The notes under the pieces are model-generated. The model did not search any database. It was not told the origin of the DNA and worked only from the letters and a program-made list of their open reading frames with translations. Below are positions 5,945 to 48,997 of a stretch of 55,397 bases of DNA, in pieces (within the stretch, counting starts at the first letter, position 1; the number at the start of each line of letters is the position of its first letter). Origin of the DNA: Hydrogenophilales bacterium 12-61-10. GTDB taxonomy: Bacteria; Pseudomonadota; Gammaproteobacteria; Burkholderiales; Thiobacillaceae. The DNA is taken from assembly GCA_002279795.1 (NCBI GenBank), contig NCCT01000001.1, positions 1 through 55,397 on the forward strand. Direction: 5' to 3'. The position numbers and the translations under genes are program-made.

Positions 5945-6834
5945 TTCGCGCCTTTCAGCAGGTTGGCCAGCGTCACGTCGAACAGGCCGAACAGGTCATC
6001 TGCGCCCGGCGCGCCGCCCACGGTAAACGGCAGCGCAACGGCGGGGATGTCCGCGCGTTCTGCCAGCCAGTCCGACGCGCGCGGGCTCTGGTAAGCAGCG
6101 CGCAGCACCATCTTGGCAGGACTGGTTTTGAGACGCGCCGCGACTTCGGCCAGATAGCCCAGCGAAGGCTCGACCCCGGGTTTGGGTTCCAGCGTGGCGA
6201 CCTCGCGCAGACCCAACCAGCCGATCAGATAGCTGAAAGACTTGTGCTGCACCGCCACCGGTACGCCCCTGAGCGGCGCGGCCTGTTGCTGCCAGCGCGC
6301 GATGGCGGTTTCCCAGCGCGCGGAAAAAGTCTTCCAGCGCGTCTGATAGGCTGCGGCGTGGGCAGGGTCGACTTCGCTCAGGCGTTGCGCCAGCGCCGCG
6401 CCGACGCGCGCGATATTGCGCGGGTCGGTCTGGATGTGCGGGTTACCAGCCGCGTGCACATCGCCCTGCGAGCGATCAAGCAGCGCCGGTTTGTCGAGCA
6501 ATGTCACATAGCGCGTCGCCTCGAAATAACCGGGACGGCCGGGCTGCACCGCAGCGTTGCCGGATTCGCGCAGCAGCAGGGGCAGCCAGCCCACTTCGAG
6601 TTCGGCGCCGGTGCAGACAACGAGATGGGCGCGCCGGGTCTGCGCGATCAGGCTGGGACGTGCCTCGATGCGGTGGGGGTCCTGCATCGCTGTAGTAGCG
6701 TTGTAGACCTTGACGTCGTCGCCGCCGATTTCACGCGCCAGCGCGCCCCATTCAGGTTCGCAGGCGAACACGTTGAGGGCGGCGTGGGCGCTCAAGGGCA
6801 GCCACAACATCAGGATTGCAAAGAGCTGTTTCAT
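5941..6834 (-). CDS. znuA: metal ABC transporter substrate-binding protein, ZnuA-like
   Basis: This 297-residue periplasmic metal-binding protein of the cluster A-I family has a clear signal peptide (MKQLFAILMLWLPLSAHA). Candidate metal ligands are the histidine in QDPHRIEARPS, the GNPHIQTDPRN motif and the QHKSFSYLIGWLGL segment, matching the usual His/His/His/Asp set. It lacks the long His/Asp-rich loop of enterobacterial ZnuA. It starts 10 bases after the outer-membrane protein gene and overlaps the permease. Zinc is inferred from operon context; manganese is less likely. Confidence 0.85.
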   Translation of the reverse strand: MKQLFAILMLWLPLSAHAALNVFACEPEWGALAREIGGDDVKVYNATTAMQDPHRIEARPSLIAQTRRAHLVVCTGAELEVGWLPLLLRESGNAAVQPGRPGYFEATRYVTLLDKPALLDRSQGDVHAAGNPHIQTDPRNIARVGAALAQRLSEVDPAHAAAYQTRWKTFSARWETAIARWQQQAAPLRGVPVAVQHKSFSYLIGWLGLREVATLEPKPGVEPSLGYLAEVAARLKTSPAKMVLRAAYQSPRASDWLAERADIPAVALPFTVGGAPGADDLFGLFDVTLANLLKGAK

Positions 6835-46008: not shown

Positions 46009-47133
46009 TCAAGCGGGTTTCGGGACGTCGCTGTCGGGCGTCGAACGCATAAAAGCTTTGTGAAACAAATGCGGGACAAGCAGATGGACGGGCATGCGCA
46101 GCCAGTGCGCGCGCACAAAGGCCGCCAGGCGGGCTGCCGGGGTCAGGGCGTCTGCGCAGCTGGCATGCACGGGCGCAAGCACACGGGTAAAAATCGCATC
46201 CATCAGGCCGAGGGTGAGGCGATTCGGCGCGGCCGCGCGCAATGACGTGAAGACGCTGTCGGGAATCGGCGTGTCCAGAAAGTAATGCAGGTAGCGCAAG
46301 GCGTAGTAAAGCGAGCGAGCGAGCTGCAATTCGTCCGCGCGTGCCGTGAGGCGTGGCCAGAAGTTGGGGGAATCGGCGGCGTCGCGCACCAGCAGGTCCA
46401 GGTCGGTGAGATCGCGCAGGCCATGCGGCAATTCGCCGTCATGAAACAGGTGGGTGGCGGAATGCAGGATGCGGTCTTCAGTCGACAGCACATAAATCCC
46501 GGGCATGTCTTCGACTGCGACGGCGCTGCTGCGCAGCCTGCCCGAGTCGGGGTGGTAGCGGGCGGTATCAGGCAGGATCGCGTGATGGACATCGATCACG
46601 GTGGCACGCTTGATGTGCTGCATGGGCGGGATTTCATGCATCCAGCGGCGGTAATAGCGCTGGTCATAATCCGACAGGCCGGTGGCGTTCCAGCCGGCCA
46701 GCATCAGCGCGGCTTCGACCGGCCCCAACTGCTCGCGGGGCACCAAAATATCGATGTCGTTAAACAGCCGTCCTGCCGCTGCGGGCAGCCCGGCGACCAC
46801 ATAGGCGCCGCCCTTGAGCACGATGACGGGAATCGCCAGCTTGGCCAGCGCCAGGCGGATTTGGCTGACTTCCCAGCGCACGGCGAGCTGCTGCTTGTCC
46901 GCCAGCGTGGCCGCCGCATCAAAATGCCAGCGCGCCTCGTTCGGAATGCCACTTACCAGGTCATGCTGATCGAGCACATGGCGAACGCGCGCCAGCAACC
47001 CTGCGCTGCGTGCCTGCCTGATCAACAGATCCCAGTCGGCCATTGAAAACTGGCGCACTCGACCCGGGTTGCACAGGGTGGCTGAGACATGGTCCTTGGG
47101 CCGGGTGGACCGGACCCGGCTAAACCGTGACAT
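46009..47133 (-). CDS. nucleotidyltransferase-fold protein of the HPr-kinase-related locus
   Basis: In this 374-residue protein the central part (IPVIVLKGGAYVVAGLPAAAGRLFNDIDILVPREQLGPVEAALMLAGW) shows the nucleotidyltransferase motif DIDILV with the first two catalytic aspartates. Then come HEIPPMQHIKRATVIDVHHAIL and a helical C-terminus. It matches the uncharacterised NTases seen next to HPr-kinase-related kinases. It overlaps the kinase stop by 14 bases (ATG 47133). It probably transfers a nucleotide to a substrate of the operon; this is inferred. Confidence 0.8.
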   Translation of the reverse strand: MSRFSRVRSTRPKDHVSATLCNPGRVRQFSMADWDLLIRQARSAGLLARVRHVLDQHDLVSGIPNEARWHFDAAATLADKQQLAVRWEVSQIRLALAKLAIPVIVLKGGAYVVAGLPAAAGRLFNDIDILVPREQLGPVEAALMLAGWNATGLSDYDQRYYRRWMHEIPPMQHIKRATVIDVHHAILPDTARYHPDSGRLRSSAVAVEDMPGIYVLSTEDRILHSATHLFHDGELPHGLRDLTDLDLLVRDAADSPNFWPRLTARADELQLARSLYYALRYLHYFLDTPIPDSVFTSLRAAAPNRLTLGLMDAIFTRVLAPVHASCADALTPAARLAAFVRAHWLRMPVHLLVPHLFHKAFMRSTPDSDVPKPA

Positions 47134-48043
47134 GCTGTTCGGCCAGACGATCAAAGGAAGCGACCGCTTCATTCAGCTGGCTGTATTCAAAATCGTAGCA
47201 GCCGACGCGCTCGATCAGCGAGGTGCCGACGCGAAATCCTTCCGCGCCGAGATGGCTGTAATTGAACGCATTCTGTGCCAGAAACATGAAGGTTTGCGCT
47301 TTGGAGCGGGGGGTGAGCCGCGTTTCGGCCTTGGCCGTCCATTTGGGAAAAATCACCCAGCCCGGTCGCGCCACTTCGTGCTGACGCCGCACGCTTTCCG
47401 TTGGCGGCCGCATATGCGCAACCGTGCCTTTGGCCGTGTCGTGTGATTCCCGGTTGATAAAGGCATTGGGCGAGAATGCCCGGATGACATCGATCGACTG
47501 GTTTTTCAAACTCACCGGGCGCGCCAGCGGGTGAATCTGGCCGGTCAGGCGGTCGATCAGGGTAAGTTCGTCCGACAGCAGGCGCCAGCCGGATAGCACC
47601 AATCCCGCTGTCAGGGTGCTTTTTCCGGAGCCGGGCGGAGCGGGCAGGATGGCGGCCAGACCGTTTTTTTCAACCACCGCCGCGTGAATGATCAGGTATT
47701 GATGGGCGTGCATCGACACGCACCAGTTTAGCCCCCATTCCAGCATGGGGTAAGCCTGATCCAGCGGCAGCGGTTTGAAAGGCAGGCTGCCGTCAGACGA
47801 GAAATCGACCTGGGGCCGAAACCAGCGACGCAAGCGATTGGGTGGGTTCAACTCGACATGAAAGTCGGCAAAAGCATGGTGTGAATCACGTGTCTCGAAC
47901 TGGCCGTAGAGGTCGACCAGTCCTTGGGCAACCGAAGGCAGGCTGGACTTCACCCGCAGCGAAAAAGGCCCAGTGCGTAACCACACACCTTGACCGGCGA
48001 GTCGCTGCCGCAACTCGGCAGGGGATAACTGAAGCAGCTTCAC
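47120..48043 (-). CDS. HPr kinase-related protein (HprK-related kinase A type)
   Basis: This 307-residue kinase relative has a P-loop PAPPGSGKSTLTAGLVL (about 136-152) and the following GWRLLSDELTLIDRLTG, as in the HprK fold. It lacks the rest of a PTS context; no HPr gene lies in the window. Similar kinases phosphorylate tail or side-chain residues in lasso-peptide clusters. It overlaps the PqqD-like gene by 4 bases (ATGA) and shares its operon. Confidence 0.85.
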   Translation of the reverse strand: MKLLQLSPAELRQRLAGQGVWLRTGPFSLRVKSSLPSVAQGLVDLYGQFETRDSHHAFADFHVELNPPNRLRRWFRPQVDFSSDGSLPFKPLPLDQAYPMLEWGLNWCVSMHAHQYLIIHAAVVEKNGLAAILPAPPGSGKSTLTAGLVLSGWRLLSDELTLIDRLTGQIHPLARPVSLKNQSIDVIRAFSPNAFINRESHDTAKGTVAHMRPPTESVRRQHEVARPGWVIFPKWTAKAETRLTPRSKAQTFMFLAQNAFNYSHLGAEGFRVGTSLIERVGCYDFEYSQLNEAVASFDRLAEQHVTV

Positions 48044-48294
48044 GGTGTTTCGAGCAGGCCAAGCTTGCGCAAACTGGCAAGCGACTCCTGGGTCAAGGAG
48101 GTGAGATGTTCGCTGCCGGACAGGTCGAGACGGGATGACAGGGCGGGTTCGATTTCGTGAGCCATCATGCCAGGACGGCTTTGGATCAGCTCGAATAGCG
48201 CCAGGGTGAAAGGGGCAAGCAGATGCGTGTCGCCTGAGGCCGTATCAAATACGACGGCTTCGTTGTCAAAGGACTTGAACTGAAAGCGTGCCAA
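48040..48294 (-). CDS. PqqD-like small protein (HPr-rel-A-associated)
   Basis: The 84-residue protein (MARFQFKSFDNEAVVFDTASGDTHLLAPFTLALFEL) follows the PqqD/RRE fold pattern: beta strands, then helices (LTQESLASLRKLGLLE). PqqD-type domains bind leader peptides of modified peptides. It is directly followed by the kinase. I recall this family as the PqqD partner of HprK-related kinase A. Confidence 0.8.
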   Translation of the reverse strand: MARFQFKSFDNEAVVFDTASGDTHLLAPFTLALFELIQSRPGMMAHEIEPALSSRLDLSGSEHLTSLTQESLASLRKLGLLETP

Positions 48295-48296
48295 GC

Positions 48297-48325
48297 GTGT
48301 GAGTTCGTGTGAGTTCGTGTGAGTC
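48297..48325. repeat. 10-bp tandem repeat, about three units
   Basis: GTGTGAGTTC occurs at 48297-48306 and 48307-48316, then GTGTGAGT(C) at 48317-48325. It lies in the 37 bases between the Tat protein gene and the PqqD-like gene. Confidence 0.9.
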
Positions 48326-48331
48326 GTGGAG

Positions 48332-48997
48332 TTATGGCTCAGTTACGTGAAATGTGCTCTTGATGTAATCAACGATATCTTTCGAACTCCATTCCACGCC
48401 GGCAACAGGTTCGAAATACGTCTGGCTATCCCACTCGCGCCACATGTTGATGACATCGGACTCCGATAAAACCGGTGTCAAGCCTGCCGCGGCATTGAGC
48501 AGGGCGGCAACGATGTGCGCGCCCAAGTTATCCGGATCAGTCAAATTCCAGGGGTTGTTGCCGTCGTTCAAATGCATGATCTGCATCATCGACAATGACG
48601 TCGTGATAGTCATGGGGTTGCCATCAACATTGGCAAAAAAATTGTCGCCTGCGAAGAGGGGGTGGAACAGGGTGCCCGCAGACCAGTTCTTTGCTTTGTT
48701 GCATTTATTCGAGCAGCTACCCGGGTCGTAGGTCGTGGGCCATTTGTTTGGCTTTTCTTTCCAGTACCCCGGCGAACGGCCGCTGCACGTAATGGGCGTG
48801 CCGTGCTGGCTCAAGTTGCCCGACGTGGCCGCCGAGGGAGATTCGCACACACCAGCCAGCACAGGCCGGCTGGCCAGAGTCAGGATGGCGGTTGCGCCGA
48901 TCGCCGCGCCAGCCAGTTTGCGGCGGGATTGGTCGACCGTTTTTTGCGGTGAGGCGTCAGCTGGGGTGTGGGTAATATCAGGCGTGTGATCAGACAT
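48332..48997 (-). CDS. Tat-exported protein with SPGYW motif, first gene of the HPr-kinase-related operon
   Basis: In this 221-residue protein a 23-residue polar N-terminal extension precedes SRRKLAGAAIGATAILTLASRPVLA, a twin-arginine signal (SRRKL at 24-28). The mature part starts about residue 49 with four cysteines (51, 71, 95, 99) and a CSGRSPGYWKEKP motif (71-83). The rest is helical (MQIMHLNDGNNPWNL, DNLGAHIVAALLNAAAG). SPGYWK-type motifs occur in some extracellular proteins; no function is known to me. Being the first gene upstream of a PqqD-like protein, a kinase and an NTase makes it the candidate substrate. Confidence 0.75.
   Translation of the reverse strand: MSDHTPDITHTPADASPQKTVDQSRRKLAGAAIGATAILTLASRPVLAGVCESPSAATSGNLSQHGTPITCSGRSPGYWKEKPNKWPTTYDPGSCSNKCNKAKNWSAGTLFHPLFAGDNFFANVDGNPMTITTSLSMMQIMHLNDGNNPWNLTDPDNLGAHIVAALLNAAAGLTPVLSESDVINMWREWDSQTYFEPVAGVEWSSKDIVDYIKSTFHVTEP

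Follow-up and report, generated by a model that had tools for sequence, protein, structure and literature searches.

In a stretch of 55,397 nucleotides from Hydrogenophilales bacterium 12-61-10 (contig NCCT01000001.1, positions 1 to 55,397; assembly GCA_002279795.1), referred to as the window, we analysed a cassette of four genes transcribed from the minus strand in the order protein with a twin-arginine translocation (Tat) signal, PqqD-like protein, HprK-related kinase, and nucleotidyltransferase (NTase). Our results point, with a probability of about 0.6, to a Tat-coupled phosphorylation system similar to those acting on ribosomally synthesised and post-translationally modified peptides (RiPPs), namely a counterpart of the linear polyphosphorylated peptides (LPP) of Bacillota that is exported through Tat. 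An earlier note on this DNA had proposed a modification system with the Tat protein as substrate and its N-terminal extension as leader, and this interpretation is partly supported by the analysis described here.

The gene arrangement is conserved far beyond chance. Of 274 genomes of the window's class, 27 contain a match to the kinase model TIGR04352 above its cut-off, as do 61 of 398 genomes of the phylum. The 86 loci examined consisted of the window, L032, a further 26 loci found by searching the class, and 58 found by searching the phylum, not counting a kinase fragment (G434). Using a signal-peptide profile over the 11,665 open reading frames (ORFs) of these loci, a Tat-signal protein was detected at 78 of the 86 cassettes, and all matches at E <0.01 were located at a cassette; 76 of the 78 were on the kinase strand at E <0.001, while the match in L039 reached E 0.0037 and that in L074 lay on the opposite strand. 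As the profiles match their own training rows, the counts over the 86 loci and with the signal profile speak for specificity, and 29 held-out loci of the window's own family, in which 34 of 61 genomes carry the kinase, served as the independent test. These revealed the Tat protein in 26, the PqqD-like protein in 28, and the NTase in 27 of the 29 loci, and the three loci without a Tat protein (L180, L185, and L186) are shorter and cut by contig ends. In nine held-out loci, the Tat gene is located behind the NTase gene. The linkage spans 36 of the 40 family labels in the kinase tree, with substrates sharing 22–37% identity with the Tat protein of the window (L032 apart). Both surveys bear out the Tat link inferred in the earlier note, the Tat protein being conserved as part of the system, and the absence of the Tat gene from relatives, which it had named as speaking against itself, was not what we found.

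Based on their sequences, the Tat proteins were grouped into class 1 (32 loci, window included), class 2 (37 loci), and class 3 (eight loci), while L112, a signal match within the 78 without a readable substrate frame, was left out of these counts. Class-1 proteins carry the motif C..S....SGN.S, usually followed by SPGYW. In their alignment, all 22 sequences share Cys51 and Ser59, and at least 90% share Ser55; judging from this conservation, Ser59 or Ser55 is the candidate for the modified serine of the window protein, with Ser59 probably being the one. The structural model of this protein (mean predicted local distance difference test score, pLDDT, of 71.9) displays a confident mature domain, and residues 53–62, including the invariant motif, score below 50 and are predicted to be disordered, as would be expected of a modification site. 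A fold search with the model resulted in no solved folds at E 0.001. Neither the window protein nor any of the 22 aligned class-1 proteins matched a family in Pfam or NCBIfam (release 20), and the 41 aligned proteins of classes 2 and 3 gave only two weak, chance-like matches in NCBIfam release 20.

Classes 2 and 3 end in C-[aromatic or aliphatic]-x-S-[FLI]. After the class sorting had been corrected by eye, as was also done before the kinase tree, a loose form of this motif with Cys or Ala in first position was found within the last 20 residues of all 45 class-2/3 proteins (43 with Cys); the strict form, counted in the classes as first sorted by pattern, was present in 38 of 44 proteins, compared with 0.07 on average and never more than 2 across 1000 shuffles. 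Among the 41 of the 45 proteins that were aligned, two Cys and the Ser were invariant, and the shortest substrates, L049 (74 aa) and L084 (68 aa), comprise the leader plus little beyond the C-terminal motif. Because these two substrate classes lack SPGYW, the motif was rejected as the defining feature of the system.

In a tree of the 86 kinases, which contains some long branches and whose bootstrap had not yet converged, the substrate labels needed 12 changes compared with 39.1 for shuffled labels, and none of 200 shuffles was as low. One clade (support of 100/98) comprised 36 of the 37 kinases associated with C-x-x-S (class-2) substrates and covered several taxonomic classes; C-x-x-S kinases from the window's class (L040, L049, L051, L056, L058, and L089) lie inside it together with those of other classes, and L115 elsewhere. 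The kinase thus follows substrate type more than host taxonomy, and of the computational results this is the strongest indication that the substrate is the Tat protein.

With regard to the enzymes, the kinase was assigned to HprK-related kinase A (TIGR04352; 403.6 bits, cut-off 200), the PqqD-like protein to the PqqD family peptide chaperones (TIGR04353; 60.6 bits, cut-off 35), and the NTase to NTP_transf_5 (PF14907; 201.3 bits, cut-off 31.2). Kinase and PqqD-like protein are adjacent and both exceed the curated cut-offs of the HPr-rel-A system, while no model in NCBIfam release 20 matched any of the 22 class-1 substrates; the earlier note had described the two families as a named but functionally uncharacterised system. 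A canonical HPr(Ser) kinase was ruled out (TIGR00679; 16.2 bits, cut-off 240), and so was a lasso peptide cluster, a macrolactam cyclase and a B2 peptidase being absent beside the window cassette. Sequence searches against the PDB resulted in weak matches of the kinase profile to HprK chains (E 0.003), in TbiB1 alone for the PqqD-like profile (E 0.35, among chance-level rows), and in nothing credible for the NTase and Tat profiles. Kinase residues His120, Lys141, Asp158, and Glu159 are invariant in 27 of 27 aligned sequences, with the same residues across the 86 rows, and the NTase motifs K-G-x-A and D-x-D as well as a third Asp do not vary among the aligned rows. Because these catalytic-type residues are invariant, kinase and NTase are probably both active.

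The N-terminal extension, described as unusual in the earlier note, turned out to be a family trait: the region preceding the twin arginine has a median length of 25 residues in cassette Tat proteins (74 usable of 77; range 2–60; nearest ATG) compared with 7 for ordinary Tat signals taken from 11 genomes (27 of 30 usable; range 2–23), a clear difference (Mann–Whitney p 3e-9) despite overlapping ranges, and with a fallback start for proteins lacking an upstream ATG, the same median, a narrower range, and p 4e-12 were obtained. In the window protein, the twin arginine occupies residues 25–26, so that the extension counts 24 residues rather than the 23 first reported. Length and polarity of the extension are conserved, its sequence is not, and a leader of conserved sequence was therefore rejected for this part. 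The signal core revealed the consensus RRRLLKG.....P.I.TL.S (46 of 77 signals aligned), and P..[TS][LVM] was found in the hydrophobic part of 55 of 77 cassette signals compared with 1 of 30 ordinary ones. Since the core is conserved and the sequence of the extension is not, the signal core, or the extension together with the signal, appears more likely to be the leader. Features of a Tat substrate, i.e., twin arginine, hydrophobic stretch, and small-residue cleavage site, are present in sequence and alignment, while the Tat signal of the window protein has no Pfam match at E 0.1. The model of the PqqD-like protein (pLDDT 91.6) shows three strands followed by three helices, the winged-helix arrangement of a RiPP recognition element (RRE). 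Its best matches in the PDB were TbiB1 with leader peptides, a sactipeptide enzyme, and lasso B1 (E 0.0026–0.07, TM-score 0.54–0.68), with RREs in complex with their leader (TbiB1; TM-score 0.64–0.68, Foldseek probability 1.00) at the top, so the predicted structure resembles leader-bound RREs.

In the mechanism we propose, the Tat protein would be made in the cytoplasm with an N-terminal leader consisting of the polar extension and the distinctive twin-arginine signal, and the PqqD-like RRE would bind this leader and present the protein to the HprK-like kinase. The kinase would then (poly)phosphorylate one invariant serine, probably Ser59 in the window protein, within the disordered SGN motif that closely follows the signal, and the Ser of the C-terminal C-x-x-S-[FLI] motif in classes 2 and 3. 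Subsequently, the NTase would decorate the phosphate with a nucleotide or sugar, Tat would export the product, and signal peptidase would remove the leader, so that no dedicated protease or ABC exporter would be needed. Outside the cell, the Tat protein would probably serve the exopolysaccharide matrix, as we infer from genomic context alone. A more far-reaching version, tentative and in our view rather doubtful, holds that the Tat signal itself is the leader read by the RRE, and that kinase and NTase build on the invariant serine a phosphate-linked sugar by which the protein is tied to exosortase-associated exopolysaccharide, in a system widespread in Pseudomonadota.

Among known systems, the nearest precedent is the LPP family (LppA, B, K, N, and S), with a discrete RRE, an HprK-like kinase, and an NTP transferase, and without a cyclase (PMC13381572). 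There, LppK phosphorylates Ser3 of the core, the single conserved Ser, and the precursors of 35–200 aa have a conserved N-terminus and a variable remainder (PMC13381572). The window cassette likewise combines RRE, HprK-like kinase, and NTP transferase without a macrolactam cyclase, and the earlier note's modification system lacking a cyclase thus has a close published precedent. In contrast to LPP, its leader contains a Tat signal and lacks [YW]xxP, neither an SpI-like peptidase nor an MsbA-like transporter is found among its immediate neighbours (other loci were not systematically searched), and cassette substrates are mostly larger and their hosts Pseudomonadota. The likeness to LPP is judged by family type. 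Since leader motif, peptidase, and transporter are lacking at the window cassette, we do not file it as LPP, though it may work like LPP with Tat as the exporter. Phosphorylated lasso peptides also share an HprK-like kinase acting on a precursor Ser, an NTase acting on the phosphate, and a discrete RRE (PMC9266682): PadeK of paeninodin phosphorylates the C-terminal Ser, and PsmK and PsmN of pseudomycoidin carry out phosphorylation followed by addition of a hexose to the phosphoserine (PMC9266682). Unlike these, the cassette has no cyclase or leader peptidase, carries a Tat signal, and differs in the second acidic catalytic residue of the kinase. RREs paired with DUF2282 precursors provide a further case of an RRE-linked precursor with an export signal and no clear recognition motif, although the signal is Sec instead of Tat and the enzymes are different (PMC12710340). 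Among the matches listed in the open-access literature, no paper on the link between Tat protein and kinase cassette was found, which does not prove its absence.

Several observations weigh against a Tat-coupled, RiPP-like phosphorylation system. Eight of the 86 loci are without a Tat protein; two of these are at contig edges (L054 and L097), and some of the other six (L076, L077, L083, L091, L101, and L116) have exosortase-type sugar genes instead. Our own profiles detected the PqqD-like protein in 74 of the 86 loci and the NTase in 66; many of the 20 loci without NTase are short, and L087, L093, and L094 lack it in 9.5–10 kb. Six f140-family loci show nothing at the PqqD position but an unrecognised ORF of 73–93 codons. 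The [YW]xxP motif of known leader-binding RREs is present in none of the 77 extensions or signals, which also counts against the extension as a leader of conserved sequence. Furthermore, the Tat signal is not recognised by TIGR01409 at E 0.01, the fold matches of the PqqD-like protein all lie above E 0.001 (best 0.0026), and the second acidic residue of the kinase is Glu (His-Lys-Asp-Glu), while His-Lys-Asp-Asp is reported to be needed by lasso kinases (PMC9266682).

Genomic context also revealed an association with exosortase (PF09721), which was found in 25 of the 27 kinase genomes compared with 59 of 247 others (Fisher p 1.8e-12, shared ancestry ignored); the window's genome has two exosortases, both on other contigs. 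Out of ten hand-picked neighbour proteins of other loci, four scored above the cut-off of exosortase-A models (TIGR03087, TIGR03088, TIGR03098, and TIGR03108), one truncated protein matched TIGR03099 below cut-off, one is GalE (TIGR01179), one a nucleotide-sugar dehydrogenase (TIGR03026), and one an HtrA-like protease that remained below cut-offs, and two were without clear assignment. At L076/L130, L077, and L091, HprK-related kinase A has no Tat or PqqD gene nearby, an NTase being present in L076 and L091, and adjoins an exosortase-A amidotransferase, a glycosyltransferase, or a sugar dehydrogenase.

These loci and the enrichment of exosortase would fit a reading in which the PqqD-like protein is a proofreading chaperone of the Tat pathway for the Tat protein, while a sugar or lipid of the envelope or exopolysaccharide is the target of kinase and NTase, which merely share the operon. 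We consider this unlikely, since the kinase phylogeny tracks substrate class, the motifs with an invariant serine, like the very small substrates L049 and L084, have the look of modification sites, and the nearest kinases of known function phosphorylate peptides. Somewhat less probable still is that the kinase–NTase pair performs a phosphate-linked glycosylation joining the Tat protein covalently to exopolysaccharide, as an anchor and not a RiPP-type tailoring; the same exosortase counts, the exosortase-A genes and GalE near some loci, the hexose added to phosphoserine by PsmN (PMC9266682), and the location of LPP and paeninodin clusters in capsule loci (PMC13381572) agree with it, whereas the window cassette has no adjoining sugar gene and the link is a genomic one only. 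That the Tat gene is a neighbour without any functional link is very improbable, for although operons can persist without such links, this one is kept across most family labels with strongly diverged substrates and despite changes in gene order.

No substrate model matching these proteins accompanied the curated kinase and PqqD families, and three substrate families with candidate residues are now supplied, which makes the function directly testable. If the Tat-coupled phosphorylation system is real, it would carry phosphorylated RiPP-like chemistry from Bacillota to Pseudomonadota, make Tat a further route by which RiPP-like products are exported, and offer a protein partner for exosortase-type exopolysaccharide. 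The gene combination of the cassette, which occurs in many bacteria, points to an undescribed mode of phosphorylation, and perhaps of sugar-tagging, of a surface protein before export.

Reciprocal searches with a class-1 profile resulted in matches in 30 of the 274 genomes, of which the 21 strong ones (at least 131 bits) were all located at a kinase cassette. The ten weaker matches comprised six ORFs with an SPGYW domain away from the kinase, two cassette proteins of class 2 (G057 and G134), and two short Tat peptides beside kinases below the cut-off (G184 and G101). The six ORFs of 207–1352 codons (G015:C37:129736, G080:C1:389907, G084:C6:171876, G099:C48:1446, G215:C152:233, and G249:C1:3747085) carry an exported-type SPGYW domain for which no Pfam model was found in the proteins scanned. 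A signal-only profile of 34 positions, built from 46 of the 77 signals, matched once each in 27 of 274 genomes: 24 matches were at a kinase above the cut-off, one was beside a kinase below it (G184), and two were elsewhere (G036 and G106), while the kinase genomes G107, G223, and G259 were missed.

Ten loci with kinases below the cut-off (L117–L126) were also inspected, four of which encode short Tat peptides of 63–94 codons beside diverged HprK-like kinases (L117:3934-4209, L118:4555-4749 and 6200-6391, L123:6012-6296, and L124:2850-3098). In L123 and L124, PqqD and kinase are fused in one ORF, followed by the NTase. Loci of this type are perhaps a more RiPP-like sister system. In addition, L127 harbours a Tat peptide of 86 codons that shares the signal core of the cassette proteins (L127:5191-5451 (-)), with no kinase found within the 10.5 kb read. 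A trypsin/HtrA-like serine protease is encoded near 16 loci, 15 of them of class 1 (e.g., L033:5211-5990 (-) and L045:6601-7401 (+)), and is a possible periplasmic processing partner of class-1 cassettes; it was rejected as a core part because none is present near the window cassette.

Coordinates, overlaps, and family matches confirmed the four genes as the minus-strand operon described in the earlier note, and its motifs SPGYW, PAPPGSGKST, and DIDILV were all located in the respective genes (Table 1). A gap of 37 nt separates the Tat stop from the PqqD-like start, and overlaps of 4 nt and 14 nt were found between PqqD-like protein and kinase and between kinase and NTase, respectively; for the NTase, we chose the ATG given in Table 1, an earlier in-frame ATG being present at 47172.

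Table 1. Features of the cassette in the window
Feature	Position	Strand	Basis
Tat-signal protein, proposed substrate (class 1), 221 aa	48332..48997	(-)	ORF and signal features
Polar N-terminal extension of Tat protein, residues 1-24	48926..48997	(-)	sequence
Twin-arginine signal, residues 25-48; plausible cleavage site A48/G49 (our reading)	48854..48925	(-)	sequence, alignment, signal-only profile
C-x-x-x-S-x-x-x-S-G-N motif, Tat protein residues 51-63	48809..48847	(-)	class-1 alignment; predicted disordered
SPGYW, Tat protein residues 75-79	48761..48775	(-)	sequence, alignment
PqqD-like RRE (TIGR04353), 84 aa, TTG start	48040..48294	(-)	family match and predicted fold
HprK-related kinase A (TIGR04352), 307 aa, GTG start	47120..48043	(-)	family match
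P-loop PAPPGSGKST of kinase	47615..47644	(-)	sequence
NTase (PF14907, NTP_transf_5) with DIDILV	46009..47133	(-)	family match and motif

The immediate neighbours of the cassette are PrmC and Grx4, identified by family search, and PrfA, read from its sequence; in agreement with the earlier note, no cyclase, peptidase, or transporter was found among them. Compared with L032, the closest relative found, the ratio of nonsynonymous to synonymous substitutions (dN/dS) was 0.08 for the kinase, 0.15 for the NTase, 0.21 for the PqqD-like protein, and 0.30 for the Tat protein, with control values of 0.16 for PrmC and 0.03 each for Grx4 and PrfA. A promoter scan revealed one site, located before grx4, compared with 1.1 expected by chance. 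As read from the sequence, no clear ribosome-binding site precedes the TTG start of the PqqD-like gene. Between the Tat stop and this start, at positions 48290-48330, a short direct repeat, ACTCACACGA, is present in about three copies.

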